Of a stretch of DNA of 38,450 nt, positions 1 to 38,448 are shown piece by piece. The notes beneath the pieces are model-generated. The model was given only the letters and a program-made list of their open reading frames with translations. It was not told where the DNA came from and searched no databases. The translations under genes were made by a program, and so were the position numbers. Source of the stretch: a virus; IMG/VR virus record IMGVR_UViG_3300029448_000126, positions 1 to 38,450 of that record, one strand, 5' to 3'. Each line of letters begins with the position of its first letter. The first letter of the stretch is position 1.

Positions 1-98
1 TCTAACGTACCCCCTACTCTCTAAAGAAAAAGAATATATATAAATATATATTCCAAAAAGAAAGGTCTCTCTCCCCCATTGACAGGTCGGTTTTTTAT
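1..98. repeat. Left copy of the terminal direct repeat
   Basis: Positions 1-98 are identical to 38351-38448; the next base differs (G at 99, A at 38449). This is either a short direct terminal repeat or the overlap left by assembling a circular or permuted genome. It contains an AT-rich hairpin (arms 32-40 and 45-53, 9 bp, loop TAAA), a polypurine/polypyrimidine stretch and the -35 box of a promoter. It lies between the structured RNA region and the terminase operon, where a packaging site could be. Read coverage would separate the two explanations. Confidence 0.9.
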
Positions 99-108
99 GG
101 GTTATTAT
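79..108 (+). promoter_or_regulatory. Near-consensus sigma70-type promoter at the head of the late operon
   Basis: TTGACA at 79-84 is a perfect -35 box. It is followed after 18 bp by TATTAT at 103-108, which matches five of six bases of the -10 consensus. The predicted transcription start is near 115. This would drive the T5orf172-like gene and the terminase genes using host RNA polymerase, in keeping with the absence of a phage polymerase. The -10 box overlaps the first possible ATG (107), so that codon could not be translated from this promoter. Confidence 0.6.
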
Positions 109-814
109 GCTCTTTATGGAATCTACGGATTACAATGAAATAGTTTACTTTCTTTACAGCAATCATCACGTAAAGATTGGCAAGGTTACAGCTAAAGACC
201 AAGACATAAAGTCTAGGGATAATGAAGATGCTGTTGTAAGTAGATTAAAAAGTTGTCAAACAGGCAACCCTGACAAAATATATCTTTTAGGCTACATGTT
301 TGGGAGTGAGTCGCACTGGCACAAACACTTTGAAGAACACAGAGGCAATGGTGAATGGTTTGGTTTTTACGATGATGTTAAACATGCAATAAGCAAACTA
401 CCACTCTATGTTAGCCAAGCTTACTTAATTGACTCAATGGTTGAATTAGGTAACTTCCAAAAACGAATACAAGAATACGAAAACAACAAAGCAAAGTTCA
501 ATGATTACCTTTGGGAGAAAGACCGTGTTTTTGATTCCTACGAAAACAAAGAAGAAGATTTAGAGTTTGCAAGAAAACATTGTCTTGAAATCGGCTGGTT
601 TTTATCTCAAATGTTTAATGCAGGTCATATGCACTTTGCAGAAAAAAGAAAAACAAGGATAAAAGATTGGTTCGGAGATATTATTGAAGTCGGCGATAAT
701 TATTTTTCAGCAAACTCTTCTGTGTCGGCTGAAGGCATAAGCGTAAAAAACGCAGTATTGTTGTTTAAAAATGCAAAAAAATATTTAGAACTTAAAGAGA
801 TGGTAAATGGCTGA
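107..814 (+). CDS. T5orf172 / GIY-YIG-like domain protein
   Basis: A 235-residue protein whose first 95 residues carry the signature of the T5orf172 (Mug113) branch of the GIY-YIG nuclease superfamily: VYFLY at 13-17, KIGK at 23-26, RLKSCQTGNP at 46-55, several His at 70-74 and GEWF at 82-85. The rest is charged and unrecognised. Members of this family are common in phages, and their substrates are mostly unknown; a nuclease role is inferred. No ribosome binding site precedes ATG 107. The promoter upstream would place the transcription start close to ATG 116 (MESTDYN), so the real product may start there on a leaderless message, giving 232 residues. The end overlaps the next gene by 8 bp, which suggests cotranscription with the terminase genes. 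Confidence 0.75.
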   Translation: MLFMESTDYNEIVYFLYSNHHVKIGKVTAKDQDIKSRDNEDAVVSRLKSCQTGNPDKIYLLGYMFGSESHWHKHFEEHRGNGEWFGFYDDVKHAISKLPLYVSQAYLIDSMVELGNFQKRIQEYENNKAKFNDYLWEKDRVFDSYENKEEDLEFARKHCLEIGWFLSQMFNAGHMHFAEKRKTRIKDWFGDIIEVGDNYFSANSSVSAEGISVKNAVLLFKNAKKYLELKEMVNG

Positions 815-1460
815 TAACAATAATCCATACAGGCAATCAACTAGAAGACTCAGACCTCAAGGTAAAACCTCCAAGAGGTTATCTAGCCTGACACCCGATG
901 GTCTACGCAAGAGGGTTCTTGACGCATTGCCTTTATGGGAGTCCTACCCTAGGTGGTTCAGGAGAGTATTGGTTCTGCTGCCGACCCATGGTGATTTGTT
1001 TTCGATAGCAGAAGAGTTAAACACTACTCCTGATGAACTGCAAAGCATGATAGAGAAGAGACCTACATTTACAAAGCTTGTGAAGTTTATTCAGGACAAC
1101 GGGCACTACCCTGCCTGTGCATCAACCAAAGAATATTTAAAGCATGCCAACCTTGTTGAGCACTATGCTAACGAGAGCACTGTGTCTGCTGTGATACACT
1201 TAGAAACTAATGCAGGTCAGGCACCAATCAATCACAAGATTGTTGACGCTGCAGGATGGTTTGCAAACATAGAGAATGACACAGAAAGAGTGCGTAGACA
1301 ACAAGCACATGCACTTGACAAATACGAGAAGAAGATAGATTCTGATGCTGTGGTTGAACAAGTGGAAGAAGGATTGCAACCCTTTGTAAGAGACATCAAC
1401 CCGGAGGAACAAGATGGCAACGAAGAGAGTAAAGTTTCCGAGGAGACAGGCACTAAGTAG
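807..1460 (+). CDS. Probable terminase small subunit
   Basis: A 217-residue protein directly before the large terminase subunit, overlapping it by 47 bp. The N-terminus is basic (first 30 residues). Residues about 35-95 are helical, with a run (DLFSIAEELNTTPDELQSMI) that reads like a helix-turn-helix. The C-terminus is acidic. Position, size and the putative DNA-binding fold fit a small terminase that recognises phage DNA and hands it to the motor. No family signature is decisive, so the call rests mainly on neighbours. The start overlaps the end of the previous gene. Confidence 0.6.
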   Translation: MADNNNPYRQSTRRLRPQGKTSKRLSSLTPDGLRKRVLDALPLWESYPRWFRRVLVLLPTHGDLFSIAEELNTTPDELQSMIEKRPTFTKLVKFIQDNGHYPACASTKEYLKHANLVEHYANESTVSAVIHLETNAGQAPINHKIVDAAGWFANIENDTERVRRQQAHALDKYEKKIDSDAVVEQVEEGLQPFVRDINPEEQDGNEESKVSEETGTK

Positions 1461-2979
1461 GTCTGTCCCCAAATATACTCCATCGCCTTGGCAAGAGGCA
1501 CTACACCGTAATCAGGCAAAGCGTAAATGGGTCTGGGCTGGTCGTAGAGCAGGCAAAGGTAGAGCAGCCATTCAAGAAGCTATCTCCACTATCCTAGAAG
1601 CAAGCAAGACAAAGTTTATTGTCAATGGAGAAGACGTTACTGACACCCTAGTTCCTGACATACACATCTGGACTGTTGCACCAACCAAGGCACAGATGAG
1701 ACAGGTGTGGAATGAGATGAAAGCCTACATACCTAGATACATGTGGAAAGGTTATGATGGCAGAGCTGGTGGTCGTGGTGGTGCATGGCATGAAGATGAA
1801 TTTTATGTAGAATTAGAAGTAAGAACCCCCAACGGGGGGTTTGCAGCCGATACTGTACGCAAGAGCGTACTGTGGGAACTACGGTCTGCAGACAATCCCG
1901 AAAGTTTGCAGACTGTGGGACTAGACTTCTTACACATTGCAGAATCACAAGATGTAAAGAAAGTGGCATGGGACAAAGTAGAATGGGTAACTGAGTCACC
2001 CGGCAGAATGGGAAGGGTTTTTGCAGAAGGCATCCCTCCTATTTCAAGGTCACACTGGTTCTCAAGGCAGTTTATGTTTGCAGAGAACAACCCGTCACTA
2101 CAGAACTATGCTGTACGTGCAACAAGCTTTGACAACATGTATTTAACTGACGCACAGAAAGACAATATCCGGCTGCAGAAAGAAACCACAACAGAATGGA
2201 TATGGGAAAGAATGGTAATGGCAAAGCAACCTGATGTCGGTGGTGGGTTCTTCAGGAAGATTGAAGATGCTGCTGTGGGCATGGAGCTTGCAAGACCGAT
2301 TGAAAACCACCCTTATGTTGCAGGACTTGACCTTGGTAAACAAGTAGACCCGACTGTGCTAATCATTAAAAACAGGATTACACGTGAAAGTGTGCACAGC
2401 ATTGAAATGTTAAAAACAGACTGGGTATTACAGAAAGAAACTTTACTTGCTGAGCTTGCACAATGGAACTGTGAAACTGTAATGATGGACTCATCAGGTA
2501 TGGGTGGTGACGTTTTATTTGATGAACTGTTAAACCTCGGTGTCCCTGTAGTTGGCAAGAAGTTTACGCCTCAAACCAAGTACCAGTTGTTCTTGAACTA
2601 TGCAGTAGCTTTACAAAATGGCACTGTGTCTTTCCCTGCAGAGTGGTCTAAATTAAGAAGTGAACTAGATGCAATAGAGGTACAGCAAGCAGGACTCGGT
2701 TATACCTTCAGGCATCCCAACTCTCAGCATGATGACTGGGTAGATGCAGAGGTTTTAGCCCTGATGGCATGTGACCCGGCAGATACCTTTGACGAAGACT
2801 ACGAGCCAGTGAACACAATAAGAACAGTTGAACCTTTGACCAATAATGGTGTATCATACACGGGAGGACGCTTAATGCGTTGGAGGAGACAAAGAAAAGC
2901 AAAGCAGTTGCAAGAACTGCGAAAGTTGACAGAGATTAGCACAAATCAGGAGACACTCCTGTTAGACGCAATGGATTAA
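1414..2979 (+). CDS. terL: Terminase large subunit (packaging ATPase and nuclease)
   Basis: A 521-residue motor that cuts and packages DNA into the prohead. The ATPase part has a Walker A-like loop AGRRAGKGR (42-50), preceded by PWQ at 25-27 as in many large terminases, and a Walker B-like segment FLHIAE (172-177). The RNase H-like nuclease part shows acidic residues in AGLDLGKQVDPT (D306), MMDSSGMGGD (D359) and HDDWVDAEVLA (D440/D441). The Walker A loop ends GKG rather than GKS/T. The start at 1414 is chosen because GGAGGA lies 5 bases upstream, inside the end of the small subunit gene. Length is usual for the family. The portal gene follows with no gap. Confidence 0.93.
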   Translation: MATKRVKFPRRQALSRSVPKYTPSPWQEALHRNQAKRKWVWAGRRAGKGRAAIQEAISTILEASKTKFIVNGEDVTDTLVPDIHIWTVAPTKAQMRQVWNEMKAYIPRYMWKGYDGRAGGRGGAWHEDEFYVELEVRTPNGGFAADTVRKSVLWELRSADNPESLQTVGLDFLHIAESQDVKKVAWDKVEWVTESPGRMGRVFAEGIPPISRSHWFSRQFMFAENNPSLQNYAVRATSFDNMYLTDAQKDNIRLQKETTTEWIWERMVMAKQPDVGGGFFRKIEDAAVGMELARPIENHPYVAGLDLGKQVDPTVLIIKNRITRESVHSIEMLKTDWVLQKETLLAELAQWNCETVMMDSSGMGGDVLFDELLNLGVPVVGKKFTPQTKYQLFLNYAVALQNGTVSFPAEWSKLRSELDAIEVQQAGLGYTFRHPNSQHDDWVDAEVLALMACDPADTFDEDYEPVNTIRTVEPLTNNGVSYTGGRLMRWRRQRKAKQLQELRKLTEISTNQETLLLDAMD

Positions 2980-4920: not shown

Positions 4921-5123
4921 TGGCATACAAAGATAAAAGGTCAGTAAGAAACTTATCACCCATAGAAGCTGGGTTTGTAAGGTTCTTTGAACTTATGGAA
5001 ACATCATTTAAAAATGTAAACAGCAACTATAAAAACATTGAAGTACAGGAACCAAAGCCTGTTCAAAGGAATCCAAGGACTCCAGACAGAGATTTAAATA
5101 ATCCGTTCCAAGGAGGAATTTGA
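4920..5123 (+). CDS. Small hypothetical protein between portal and internal protein
   Basis: A 67-residue, basic, mostly helical protein starting at a TAATG overlap with the portal stop. The C-terminal half is Pro/Asn-rich (PKPVQRNPRTPDRD). No recognised family. Its place between portal and the internal virion proteins suggests a minor virion or assembly factor. Its last bases carry the AGGAGG (5111-5116) that serves the next gene. Confidence 0.65.
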   Translation: MAYKDKRSVRNLSPIEAGFVRFFELMETSFKNVNSNYKNIEVQEPKPVQRNPRTPDRDLNNPFQGGI

Positions 5124-7981
5124 TGCCACATACACCGGGACATAGCCCTTTTGATATTTACGCCTTACGTGGTGAAGGTGGAGAACTGATAGGCTCAGAA
5201 GATATAATAAAAAGAAGAGATGACGAACAAGCAAGAACATTTCAAGCTGCAGCTCCTCCAGCAGGAATGGTTGACCCTAACCCTGCAGCTTCAGCAGCAG
5301 CTTTTTCAGCTCCATCATACCCATTTCCAAGTAATGCTAGTTCAATAGGAAATCCTAGTATGGCAGCAAGCACAATACCTGTAGATAATTTTGCTCAAAG
5401 AGAAGAAGAGATTTTAAGCCAAAGGAGAATGGAAGAAGAAAGAAGGATTGAAGCTGAAAGAAGACTAAGAGAGCTTGAAGAAAGAATTAATCAGATGTCT
5501 GCTGGTGCTCAAATGGTACCATCAACAGGTGCTTTTGGTGCTGGCACAGAGGTCAGCCCAGACCCAGAAGTAAGAAGAACAACTCCTAGATTATATGCAG
5601 GTTTAAATACTGCAGGATTCCAAAGGGGTGGTGGGCAGTTTGGTGATTTTGCTCCTTTGCCAAGTGCAGCTCAACAAGATACAGGTGCTTTGATTGACCC
5701 TATGGATATAGCAAGAAGAGACTTTGCAGACCCTGCAAGATTATATGTAGAGTCAGGTGGCGAGTTTAATTATCAATTAATACAAGAAGCATTAAGAAAT
5801 TTTGCTAATCAACCTGATGTTAATTTAGCACCAGACGCTTCATACTTACTATCAAGAGTTGGTATTGATTCAAGATTTTTATTAGACGATTTATTTAGAG
5901 AATTTAATAATGCAACCCAAGGACCTAATGCACGTATGAGTCCAGAAGAATTTTTATTTAGATTTACAGGAACAGGACCGGGCACGAAAGTTGGAGAAGC
6001 TTTAAATAAGCTTTCTTTGGCAGAAGGTAACTTGTCAGCATTATTGCCAGCAGACAGAGCAACTATTGAACAATATCAAGTTGCTAACGGAGCTATACCA
6101 AATGAAACATTAAGGCTTTACGGAATACCAACATCAACACCTCCAAGAGAAGTTGTTGGTGGTGGAGTAAGTAGCGAACAAGGTGTTGCAGGAGAGCAAG
6201 GAGCAGGAACTGGTGGAGGAGCTATGGGACCATTTCAAGCTGGAGGTGCTGGTCAAATAAATACTGAACCAATTACTCTAAACGCAGGTCAACAATCAGC
6301 AATATTCCAAGCAGGTTATGACGCTATTGAAGCATTAAGAGCTGGACAGACAGGTGTTAGATTGCCAGATGAAATATTCCAAATAGCAGCAAATGATGCA
6401 GCAACAGGTAAAACATATTCAACTGCTCAAAATATTATTGAGTCTTTTGATTTTGGTGTAACCCCTGAAGCACAAGTACAAGTTGCAAACATAGAAGCAT
6501 CAACGGCAGCAAGAGAACTAGACTTAGCTGAAGATAGAGCAACAAGAGAATTTCAAATTGCTCAACAACAAATATTGAATACTGCAGGACAAATTGACAA
6601 TGAATTTAATATAGCTTTGGGTGACTTAGAATTAAGGCAACTTACGCAATCACAACAAAATCAAATAGAACAATCAAGGCTAGCTTTTGATGAAAGAAAC
6701 GCAAGAGCAAGCAGAGGTCTTGAAAGAGAACTAGCACAAGCAAGCAACAAAACAAATATTGATATTTCTAATATACAAGCTGAAGCCTCAAGGTTTGTTG
6801 CTACAGAAAATGGATTAGCTGCTAGAGACGTAGCTATATTTAATAAAGCTAGTGCAGCAGAAGTAGCAGAAATTACTGGGCTTAGTAAATCACAAGTTGC
6901 AAATATCCAAGGTCAATACAACAGGCAGATTGCATCACTTACTGGTTTAAGTCAGCAAGAGGTTGCTAGAATACAAGGTGCAAATCAATTAGCAGTTGAA
7001 AAAGAAAGATTAAGTGCACAGGAAACTATTTCAAGCAATCAATTAGCAAATGCTATTACTTTAGCAGGGCTTAACAACACAAACACTGCAACAATAGCAA
7101 CAGCTCAAAATGCTGCAGCTATAGCAGTTGCTACAGCAAATAACACAAGTGCAGGTGAGATTGCTAAATTACAAGGAGATGATGCTTTTAAACTTTCACA
7201 GATGCAAATTAGTGAACAGTTTAAAGGTGAAGCTGAAATAGCAAAACTTCAAAAAGATTATCAAAAAGAACTTGCTACTCTTACTGGAACAACAGAAGAA
7301 CAGATAGCTTCTATACAAGCACAGTCTAATCAATCTATAAATGATGCTAGAATTGCTGGTGAAAAAGAAGCATACACTGCACAGCAACAATTTCAATCAC
7401 AAGAAGCTCAGGCTCAAAGAACTTTTGAAAGTGGTGAAGCTACGGCTCAAAGAACTTTTGAGGGTCAGCAAGTAACAGGTCAACAAACTTTCCAAGCTCA
7501 GGAAGCACAATTAGATAGAGATGCACAAGCAGAAAATGTAAGGTTACAATTCTTAAATGGATTGCAACCAGCAGAGTTTGCAGAACTGCAAAGAGATATT
7601 TCAAGAGGTGGTTTAACCGTAGAACAATCGGAAAACCTTGCTGCACTTGTAGCTAGAGGTGGTTTGAGTGCAGAAGAAAGATTAGCAGAAATGAATGCAG
7701 AAAGCAGAACTGACGAAATGAATACCCTTGTATCCTTGCTTTCTAACCCACAAGCACTTGGTGCATTCGTAACTGCAATATCTGGTGAGTTGCCATTCGA
7801 GACTGTTCCTACTATGGGTCAGTTAGCAGAGATGACTCCTAACAGAATACAATACTTGCAAGGTGCATTATCTGCACTTGGTATTGACCCAACAACTTTT
7901 GTAAGGATGGCTCAGTCAGTTACTCCACAAGCATTTCAAGAATCAGGACCATTTAGTCAAATATCAGCAATGATAGCGTAG
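5123..7981 (+). CDS. Large Ala/Gln-rich coiled-coil virion protein, probable internal or ejection protein
   Basis: A 952-residue protein. I start it at ATG 5123, six bases after a perfect AGGAGG; an in-frame TTG just before is a poorer choice. The N-terminus is low complexity (Ala/Pro/Ser), followed by a charged helix rich in Glu and Arg. The long middle part is Ala/Gln/Asn-rich with coiled-coil character and internal repeats: TGLSKSQVANIQG, TGLSQQEVARIQG and TGTTEEQIASIQA, then a row of QRTFE/QQTFQ units. The C-terminal 120 residues look globular. The composition fits an extended protein packed in the head and ejected, as in podoviruses. No enzyme motif was found. It precedes an even larger protein by only 7 bp, so the two probably act together. 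Confidence 0.65.
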   Translation: MPHTPGHSPFDIYALRGEGGELIGSEDIIKRRDDEQARTFQAAAPPAGMVDPNPAASAAAFSAPSYPFPSNASSIGNPSMAASTIPVDNFAQREEEILSQRRMEEERRIEAERRLRELEERINQMSAGAQMVPSTGAFGAGTEVSPDPEVRRTTPRLYAGLNTAGFQRGGGQFGDFAPLPSAAQQDTGALIDPMDIARRDFADPARLYVESGGEFNYQLIQEALRNFANQPDVNLAPDASYLLSRVGIDSRFLLDDLFREFNNATQGPNARMSPEEFLFRFTGTGPGTKVGEALNKLSLAEGNLSALLPADRATIEQYQVANGAIPNETLRLYGIPTSTPPREVVGGGVSSEQGVAGEQGAGTGGGAMGPFQAGGAGQINTEPITLNAGQQSAIFQAGYDAIEALRAGQTGVRLPDEIFQIAANDAATGKTYSTAQNIIESFDFGVTPEAQVQVANIEASTAARELDLAEDRATREFQIAQQQILNTAGQIDNEFNIALGDLELRQLTQSQQNQIEQSRLAFDERNARASRGLERELAQASNKTNIDISNIQAEASRFVATENGLAARDVAIFNKASAAEVAEITGLSKSQVANIQGQYNRQIASLTGLSQQEVARIQGANQLAVEKERLSAQETISSNQLANAITLAGLNNTNTATIATAQNAAAIAVATANNTSAGEIAKLQGDDAFKLSQMQISEQFKGEAEIAKLQKDYQKELATLTGTTEEQIASIQAQSNQSINDARIAGEKEAYTAQQQFQSQEAQAQRTFESGEATAQRTFEGQQVTGQQTFQAQEAQLDRDAQAENVRLQFLNGLQPAEFAELQRDISRGGLTVEQSENLAALVARGGLSAEERLAEMNAESRTDEMNTLVSLLSNPQALGAFVTAISGELPFETVPTMGQLAEMTPNRIQYLQGALSALGIDPTTFVRMAQSVTPQAFQESGPFSQISAMIA

Positions 7982-37183: not shown

Positions 37184-37221
37184 CCAAAAAAAAACTCCCT
37201 GCTGAAATTAATCAACAGGGA
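37184..37221 (-). terminator. Intrinsic terminator of the rightmost minus-strand unit
   Basis: On the minus strand CTCCCTGTTG pairs with CAGCAGGGAG (10 bp with one U-G pair, loop ATTAATTT), followed directly by a run of nine T. Wobble polarity and the T-run both fit minus-strand transcription. It ends the two-gene unit at 37237-37735 and isolates it from the rest of the early block. Confidence 0.85.
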
Positions 37222-37236
37222 GCAAAGAGCAAGAAA

Positions 37237-37401
37237 TTAATCGTTATCTATAATTTCAATGTATGCAACATTTAAACCATCCTTTCGCATGTCTGCAAAT
37301 GCTTGCTCTTTGGCTAGCTTATCTAATCTAGCTTGTTTAATCTGCTTTCTAGCGTCTGCTAACAAGTCAGAGTTAATTTTTATATATTTAACTTTTGACA
37401 T
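37237..37401 (-). CDS. Small helical protein (54 aa)
   Basis: ATG 37401 is preceded by AAAGGAG. The product starts MSKVKYIKINSDLLADARKQ, has a Lys/Ala-rich helix (QIKQARLDKLAKEQAFADM) and ends in GLNVAYIEIIDND. It overlaps the end of the zinc-finger gene by 14 bases and is followed 15 bases later by the terminator, so the two form a compact unit. Not recognised. Confidence 0.6.
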   Translation of the reverse strand: MSKVKYIKINSDLLADARKQIKQARLDKLAKEQAFADMRKDGLNVAYIEIIDND

Positions 37402-37735
37402 TTTTAGCTCCTTTATTTTTGATTAAACTATTTACAGCTTTTTTATTAGTTTTACACCAGTTTTTCTGTTTATGACCTGTCCCTAATTCATTAGAAAAAC
37501 CTCTTGCAGTCTGGAAGGTTGTCCCACACCTAGAACAAGCATAATAATTTTTCTTGCCCTTTTTCATTACGTGGTTTTTCAATTTCATTAGCTCCATAAC
37601 ATCTAATTTTTTTGGTTTGTCAATCAAATTGGATGCGTCTAAACTCTGCAATCTAATTGCGTCTAGAACTGATGAACTAATTAAAGCTATCATTTCCTCA
37701 TTAATTGTTAATTCTTGTTTTTTTGAGTTAGCCAT
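37388..37735 (-). CDS. Zinc-finger-like protein (115 aa)
   Basis: A 115-residue protein. The C-terminal half carries YYACSRCGTTFQTARGF, then GTGHKQKNWC: Cys 68 and 71 with a His and Cys following, a C2H2-like zinc finger. The tail is Lys-rich and suited to DNA binding. The N-terminal half is helical (EEMIALISSSVLDAIRLQSL). AAGGAGAAAAT precedes the start. Encoded first in the rightmost unit, divergent from the structured RNA, it is a candidate early regulator. Confidence 0.6.
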   Translation of the reverse strand: MANSKKQELTINEEMIALISSSVLDAIRLQSLDASNLIDKPKKLDVMELMKLKNHVMKKGKKNYYACSRCGTTFQTARGFSNELGTGHKQKNWCKTNKKAVNSLIKNKGAKNVKS

Positions 37736-37757: not shown

Positions 37758-37786
37758 TTTAACTACCCTTTTCTTTTCGGGATAAT
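37758..37786 (+). promoter_or_regulatory. Candidate promoter for the structured RNA
   Basis: GATAAT (37781-37786) matches five of six -10 bases. The -35 region 17 bp upstream (TTTAAC, 37758-37763) is a weak match. The predicted start near 37793 falls just before the first paired base of the RNA (37801), which supports the call. It diverges from the zinc-finger gene. Confidence 0.4.
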
Positions 37787-37792
37787 TAACCC

Positions 37793-38338
37793 CCCAACGG
37801 AAGGTAAGACTACGCATGGCATAGGTTCTTAATTGACGCAAGAGCCCGTAGGGTGCCATTTACTCTTGTGTTAATTAAGGTTCTATGCAATCGTCAAAGA
37901 CCTTACGCTTGGAGGCGTTAATTATAGGTGGTGGGGCATTTATAAGCGACTGGGTCGCACTCCACTTTAATAAGGGTTCAAACGCCCCCAAGCTCTAATG
38001 TTCACGAGAATTAGAAACTGCTGACGGTCAGGGATTACTAAGGGATTCTATCCCTTGGTTCGTCTGGGGGACGAGACCCCCACTTCCTTGGGCTGACGGG
38101 AGGGTTGAGAGAACTACGGCTAGGTTGCGAGCTCATAGAGCGAGCAACTGAACATAAGCAGGGGGCAAGGTGCCCCCTTTACGGACGCAAGATGCGTCTT
38201 ATGTTCACACATAGTGCTAGCCGTAGGACGTTGTAGGGTATTCGTATATGTTATGGTGGTACTCAGCGTGCTGAAACCCTACGATGCACTTAGGGGACTA
38301 TAGGGGAGTGTGTGTGTGCACATGCTATACGCAAGTAA
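37793..38338 (+). ncRNA. Large ornate structured noncoding RNA, unassigned family
   Basis: About 540 gene-free bases fold into consecutive helices. Arm I: 37820-37844 with 37863-37887, 25 pairs with one mismatch and four wobble pairs, extended by AAGGT/ACCTT (37801-37805, 37900-37904). Arm II: 37908-37919 with 37981-37992, enclosing 37931-37936/37960-37965 and GCGAC/GTCGC (37946-37958). Hairpin III: 37994-37999/38010-38015. Arm IV: 38027-38031/38093-38097, enclosing 38037-38046/38050-38059 and 38065-38070/38077-38082. Arm V: 38114-38123/38217-38226, perfect, enclosing a GA/GA hairpin (38124-38148) and 38149-38158/38198-38207, itself holding GGGGGC/GCCCCC and ACGCA/TGCGT. Arm VI: 38229-38239/38276-38286. 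Eight wobble pairs are G-U on this strand and one on the other. Size resembles GOLLD or ROOL RNAs. The 3' end is uncertain. Confidence 0.75.
38230..38246 (+). repeat. 17-base inverted repeat copy B
   Basis: GTTGTAGGGTATTCGTA, identical to the minus strand of 37007-37023. Its first ten bases form the 5' side of arm VI of the structured RNA. The remaining seven lie in the loop region of that arm. Confidence 0.75.
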
Positions 38339-38340
38339 TA

Positions 38341-38355
38341 CGTTCTACGTTCTAA
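38341..38355 (+). repeat. 15-base repeat shared with the early-operon hairpin
   Basis: CGTTCTACGTTCTAA, itself a near-tandem CGTTCTA duplication, also occurs on the minus strand at 29457-29471. Here it abuts the terminal repeat and overlaps a small hairpin TACGTT/AACGTA (38339-38344, 38354-38359). The two copies lie upstream of different transcription units, so a common regulatory protein site is possible. Confidence 0.65.
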
Positions 38356-38448
38356 CGTACCCCCTACTCTCTAAAGAAAAAGAATATATATAAATATATA
38401 TTCCAAAAAGAAAGGTCTCTCTCCCCCATTGACAGGTCGGTTTTTTAT
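38351..38448. repeat. Right copy of the terminal direct repeat
   Basis: Identical to 1-98. The base after the repeat (38449) differs from position 99, which could be a population variant at the assembly join or a true end. The copy includes the -35 box (38429-38434) but not the -10 box, so the promoter is complete only on the left copy or the closed circle. Confidence 0.9.

Follow-up and report, generated by a model that had tools for sequence, protein, structure and literature searches.

A putative large structured RNA with a conserved 3' domain and replaceable 5' arms upstream of the terminase genes in a clade of small phages

The DNA analysed here, referred to as the window, is the whole of IMG/VR record IMGVR_UViG_3300029448_000126 (38450 bases). 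The contig ends overlap by 97 bases (2–98 = 38352–38448), and the window is therefore probably a complete genome with circular permutation or terminal redundancy. The record is listed as being without end repeats despite this overlap (1–98, 38352–38448), and the contig ends of one relative, G007, also overlap, at TerS. The predicted TerL, RecT-like and DnaC-like proteins mark the source as a tailed phage. The phages are uncultivated, and a marine origin was a suggestion of the first-pass annotation. When the contig ends are joined, a putative noncoding RNA lies between a leftward gene block and a rightward block that includes a GIY-YIG-like gene, the presumed TerS and TerL (Table 1). Family searches returned no match for the presumed TerS or for the first gene of the leftward block. 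The latter is part of a short leftward two-gene unit (37388–37735 and 37237–37401) that is closed by a strong hairpin resembling an intrinsic terminator, with eight T (37194–37223, minus strand).

Table 1. Features of the RNA locus in the window
Feature	Position	Strand	Basis or remark
Conserved late promoter TTGACA-18-TATTAT	79–108	+	Just past the RNA after joining of contig ends; first ATG (116) 8 nt after the -10 box
GIY-YIG-like (MUG113) gene	116–814	+	Pfam PF13455, E 3.9e-5; between RNA/promoter block and TerS
Presumed TerS (gene directly before TerL)	807–1460	+	Assigned by position; 64–100% identity in 14 relatives
TerL, terminase large subunit	1414–2979	+	PHROG 2, E 3.9e-20; 83–99% identical within the clade
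First gene of divergent leftward block	37388–37735	-	115 aa, Cys-rich; bounds the RNA on the 5' side
Weak promoter-like site TTAACT-16-GATAAT	37759–37786	+	Candidate only; would start transcription near 37793
Whole putative noncoding RNA	37793–38448	+	Fold z; 3'-part homology to 15 relatives; 5' end approximate
Variable 5' domain	37793–38028	+	25-bp arm (18+7 bp) 37819–37888; arm 37907–37993; hairpin 37994–38015
Middle domain	38029–38226	+	Common to G006, G007 and, much diverged, L060
Middle helix M1	38037–38059	+	Stem comparison
Middle helix M2	38065–38082	+	Stem comparison
Middle helix M0	38114–38226	+	Stem comparison
Middle helix M3	38124–38148	+	Stem comparison
Middle helix M4	38149–38207	+	Stem comparison
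Middle helix M5	38160–38178	+	Stem comparison
Middle helix M6	38183–38199	+	Stem comparison
Universal 3' domain	38212–38417	+	All 16 clade phages; covariance model R1
Terminal element CTAAAGAAAA-[hairpin 38382–38403]-CCAAAAAGAAAGG	38371–38415	+	Alignment; most conserved element of the RNA

When 50,697 phage records were searched for near and distant DNA matches, none was found to the RNA, to its relative in L043 or to the first 25 kb of the genome. Against the annotated phage collection, TerL returned remote matches only, below 30% identity, and the portal returned none; no near relative of the window phage is found in that collection. Relatives were found via a tail-region protein (5120–7981), the leftward gene, the GIY-YIG-like gene, TerL and DNA patterns. 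The window and 15 IMG/VR contigs make up a clade of 16 members that show graded divergence and have small genomes (approximately 38–42 kb). The 3' domain of the RNA was present in 15/15 IMG/VR contigs bearing the TerL of this clade (83–99% identity), and an independent DNA pattern from the middle of the 3' domain matched 11 contigs in the viral collection, all of them in the clade. Wherever whole records were searched the RNA was single-copy. Without exception among the members, it is followed by TerS, either directly or with the GIY-YIG-like gene in between. The GIY-YIG-like gene is found between the promoter and TerS in the window, L042, L043 and L044, and is absent from G001, G002, G006, G007 and G008, where TerS comes directly. 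It looks like an insertion that left the upstream block intact.

The first-pass annotation had read 37793–38338 as a noncoding phage RNA, large and elaborately folded, that belonged to no family it could name and was similar in size to GOLLD and ROOL. This proposal is supported by the fold, the covariation, the lack of a conserved protein frame and the Rfam scans. While the region is real, its 3' end had been placed too early: conservation with relatives reaches 38446, and the RNA enters the 97-bp contig-end overlap, extending to about 38448. The 5' end was set solely by the weak promoter-like match and the onset of structure. Across the relatives, the RNA is approximately 500–900 bases long. 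The minimum free energy of the 546 bases at 37793–38338 is -219.1 kcal/mol, compared with -173.8 ± 6.7 for 100 dinucleotide shuffles, none of which was as good (0/100; z = -6.8). An independent run on the same bases gave z = -8.6, with 25 control segments of the same genome averaging -1.0 and none falling below -3.5. The predicted fold is thus far more stable than its shuffled controls (z about -7 to -8.6), and the helical arms that had been named are present, with stems of 18+7, 10, 8, 10 and 11 bp. The plus-strand z of the full region was below zero in 12/12 members (-1.9 to -16.6), and was modest in some (L077, -1.9; L080, -2.0). The earlier statement that there is no supported reading frame also held, as stop-free frames in the window region reach 64 aa at most and the longest ones are not the same among the relatives, leaving no conserved reading frame.

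Conservation of the RNA appears in three visible layers, namely a universal 3' domain, a middle domain and 5' arms that have been replaced. No sequence homologue of the 5' domain was found in any relative compared. Between subgroups the 5' arms are without homology where the 3' domains are 90–99% identical, and the 5' part can be aligned inside subgroups (L036/L018 and L019/L077/L080). Homology breaks off near 38029 and near 38216; both points are close to the edges of helices, suggesting a modular exchange of RNA segments. Diverged direct repeats (70–79% identity) were seen in the 5' part of the RNA region of L072 (11040–11315, minus strand), where the arms have perhaps grown by duplication. 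A closing helix common to the members, formed by GAGAGA tracts with a 3' CTCTCT tract, was possible in 10/12 but remained a candidate only.

RNAalifold found few pairs in a plain MAFFT alignment of all members because MAFFT misaligns the arms, and subgroup alignments and hand-set registers were used in its place. Stems of the middle domain include M1 (10 bp), M5 (8 bp) and M0 (10 bp, CTACGGCTAG/CTAGCCGTAG). Across eight helical segments with 51 pairs in three phages, 17 compensatory double changes and 2 broken pairs were counted in a hand-set register that leans towards pairing, most of which is fixed by the order of the arms and the conserved sequences around them. U-G to G-U exchanges were seen among these pairs. 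The tandem GA/GA within GTTGC..GCAAC, to which the first-pass annotation had drawn attention, is present in the window (M3) but is not conserved: G006 has Watson-Crick pairs instead, and L060 has another stem.

Covariance model R1 scored 146–214 bits in intact 3' domains, with one match per wholly searched record, and 63 bits in the 3' domain of L018, which contains a run of N. The domain includes an 11-bp stem at 38229–38286, and two of its helices and the terminal hairpin carry changes on both sides. Neither any of 500 column shuffles nor any slid register reached the observed values for paired cells, double-change cells or the covariation score. The number of pairs with double changes is unremarkable among the shuffles, and tests of this kind are inflated by common descent. 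The covariation among homologues that had been looked for was therefore found, as compensatory changes, in both the middle and the 3' helices. Structure beyond chance, compensatory changes and the lack of a conserved frame, the general marks of a large structured phage noncoding RNA, are all present here. Two helices predicted in the 3' domain, at alignment columns 27–36/94–103 and 98–102/179–183, share bases and are mutually exclusive alternatives, which may reflect either a switch or an error.

The hairpin of the terminal element varies in sequence and length, with changes on both sides in 3/7 pairs, and the A/G-rich flanks are nearly invariant. A second phage lineage (L061, L062, L064, L067, L068, L075, L081 and L082), which has a P22-like portal (shown for L061), carries the same element, CTAAAGAAAA-hairpin-CCAAAAAGAAAGG. 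There it is also between divergent gene blocks and is in the sense orientation, following a promoter-like site and preceding an SD-like sequence, with the start codon approximately 10 nt further on. None of the four second-lineage records searched matched the covariance model built on the 3' domain as a whole. An exact 17-base scan of bacterial and archaeal genomes returned 8 matches, which were taken as chance as the covariance model found nothing at those loci, and a 17-base match in L038 was dropped because it is inside coding-looking DNA.

For the whole region, the minus-strand fold signal nearly equals that of the plus strand, with similar z-scores, and the number of wobble pairs in the arms hardly favours the plus strand (47 versus 35). 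The strand call therefore rests on three other grounds, by which the plus strand of the RNA is favoured. Energies from RNAalifold for the 3' domain were -34.7 for the plus strand and -23.0 for the minus strand in one subgroup and -37.7 and -26.7 in another, making the plus strand 11–12 kcal/mol better in two separate subgroups. The remaining grounds are that the terminal element lies in the sense orientation in the second lineage, and that U-G to G-U exchanges occur.

The promoter downstream of the RNA is sigma-70-like and has the form TTGACR-17/18-TATTAT, or close to it, in the members, with the hexamers kept and the spacer sequence free. It had the top promoter score in 11/13 members. The TerS/terminase operon is probably translated from a nearly leaderless message throughout the clade. 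As the conserved promoter lies between the RNA and TerS, and the start is nearly leaderless, the RNA need not be a TerS leader, and it is probably a transcript separate from the TerS mRNA. The site just upstream of the RNA is a candidate only because the region contains no more promoter-like sites than expected by chance (5 versus 5.1) and this one is not conserved in relatives. Across the members, a search of both strands yielded no conserved promoter on the 5' side of the RNA and none for the leftward genes. Similarly, no intrinsic terminator was found on the 3' side of the RNA, between it and TerS.

Taken together, we favour, at a probability of roughly 55%, a free-standing, phage-encoded large structured RNA that combines a 3' docking or assembly core with an exchangeable 5' scaffold. 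Its transcription would run rightward, out of the gap that separates the divergent early and late genes. The working or docking part would be the conserved 3' domain, whose last element is a hairpin between invariant A/G-rich strands, and the 5' arms would be a fast-changing scaffold swapped module by module. GOLLD and ROOL, taken as analogues, suggest a structural role, most likely during the lytic cycle, perhaps in homo-oligomeric form or in complex with a protein that binds the A/G-rich strands. The strict synteny with TerS counts against the free-standing reading, as a cis element would show the same synteny. So do the lack of a conserved promoter before the RNA and of an intrinsic terminator after it, the similar minus-strand fold signal over the whole region, the modest z of some members and the partial incompatibility of the 3' domain pairings.

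The main alternative is a role in cis for the late operon, as a leader or an antitermination element. Polymerase starting to the left of the RNA would transcribe it in full and, owing to the fold or to a protein on the terminal hairpin, would continue into the terminase and structural genes, with the A/G-flanked hairpin serving as a recognition site like those in nut and put. This would explain the strict TerS linkage and is consistent with the position of the RNA, immediately ahead of the first late gene in every case, with the absence of a terminator between it and TerS, and with the second lineage, where the terminal element sits in an mRNA leader, between the promoter-like site and the SD-like sequence and start codon. 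Nut and put sites lie downstream of the promoter and within the transcript of the genes they control. Here no terminator intervenes, but a sigma-70-like promoter with conserved hexamers separates the RNA from TerS in nearly all members. Moreover, put and nut sites are much smaller than this RNA and do not need freely turning-over arms of several hundred bases. We consider a cis-acting role unlikely, though deserving of serious attention.

Less likely than either the free-standing RNA or a cis leader is an element of DNA packaging, whether an RNA component of the terminase motor resembling pRNA or a hairpin-rich pac/cos site in the DNA. Sites of the latter type are commonly found beside TerS, which the region adjoins in every member, and the window and G007 both have contig ends nearby. 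However, contig ends differ in position between phages, the strong strand dependence of the 3' domain energies would be needless in a DNA element, and phi29 pRNA is only 120–174 nt, making a packaging element improbable. A feature acting only as DNA, such as a replication origin or an inverted-repeat recombination hot spot with no functional transcription, would suit the good folding of both strands, the intergenic position between divergent operons and the swapping of 5' arms by recombination, but is very improbable, as wobble pairs alternate with Watson-Crick pairs in the helices (G-C to G-U; U-G to G-U), the single-stranded flanks are the most conserved part, and the conserved domain folds better by 11–12 kcal/mol on the plus strand.

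Rfam scans of the window and relatives, at gathering and permissive thresholds, gave nothing above chance, and no match to GOLLD or ROOL was obtained for the window stretch or for L043 up to E = 10. Group I introns and tmRNA, which the first-pass annotation had also listed for checking, had no match in Rfam or with ARAGORN, and the window contains no tRNA or tmRNA genes. As searches of the open-access literature found no description of it either, the RNA is, on this evidence, previously uncatalogued. To our knowledge, giant phage RNAs fall into only a few families, all of them without an established function. Another family with small genomes, 16 graded members and a fixed terminase neighbour would offer a compact system in which to test what such RNAs are for, and the combination of modular 5' arms with a constant 3' domain would show how giant phage RNAs evolve. 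More tentatively, and at odds that we put well short of even, the RNA may form a new class of its own among giant phage RNAs, one that has no relation to GOLLD or ROOL, with a 3' assembly or protein-docking core and interchangeable 5' modules, that is always coupled to terminase and so perhaps linked to DNA packaging or to the onset of late expression.

Among known systems, phi29 pRNA is likewise a phage RNA tied to DNA packaging, and the RNA gene here is beside the terminase genes; however, the RNA is much larger and without an Rfam match, and its link to packaging is one of genome position only. The nut and put sites also place a hairpin by a conserved single-stranded stretch upstream of phage genes, but they are small and lack a scaffold of several hundred bases, and the flanks seen here are A/G-rich rather than boxA-like. 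GOLLD RNAs of phages self-assemble into cages and are often near tRNA islands, which is a frequent but not an obligatory feature. In GOLLD the 3' region is conserved and the 5' region less so, while no such contrast is described for ROOL (PMC12286853). The RNA reported here resembles GOLLD in being phage-encoded and large, with many arms, a universally conserved 3' region and a variable 5' region, and differs from it in having no Rfam match, no tRNA in the window and TerS as its neighbour. With ROOL it shares a phage origin, a length of about 600–700 nt and an elaborate fold, and it differs in the lack of an Rfam match and of adjacent tRNA genes. As no Rfam family matches, it is best read as a new family of large ornate phage RNA that, by analogy, would work like GOLLD and ROOL while being a member of neither.
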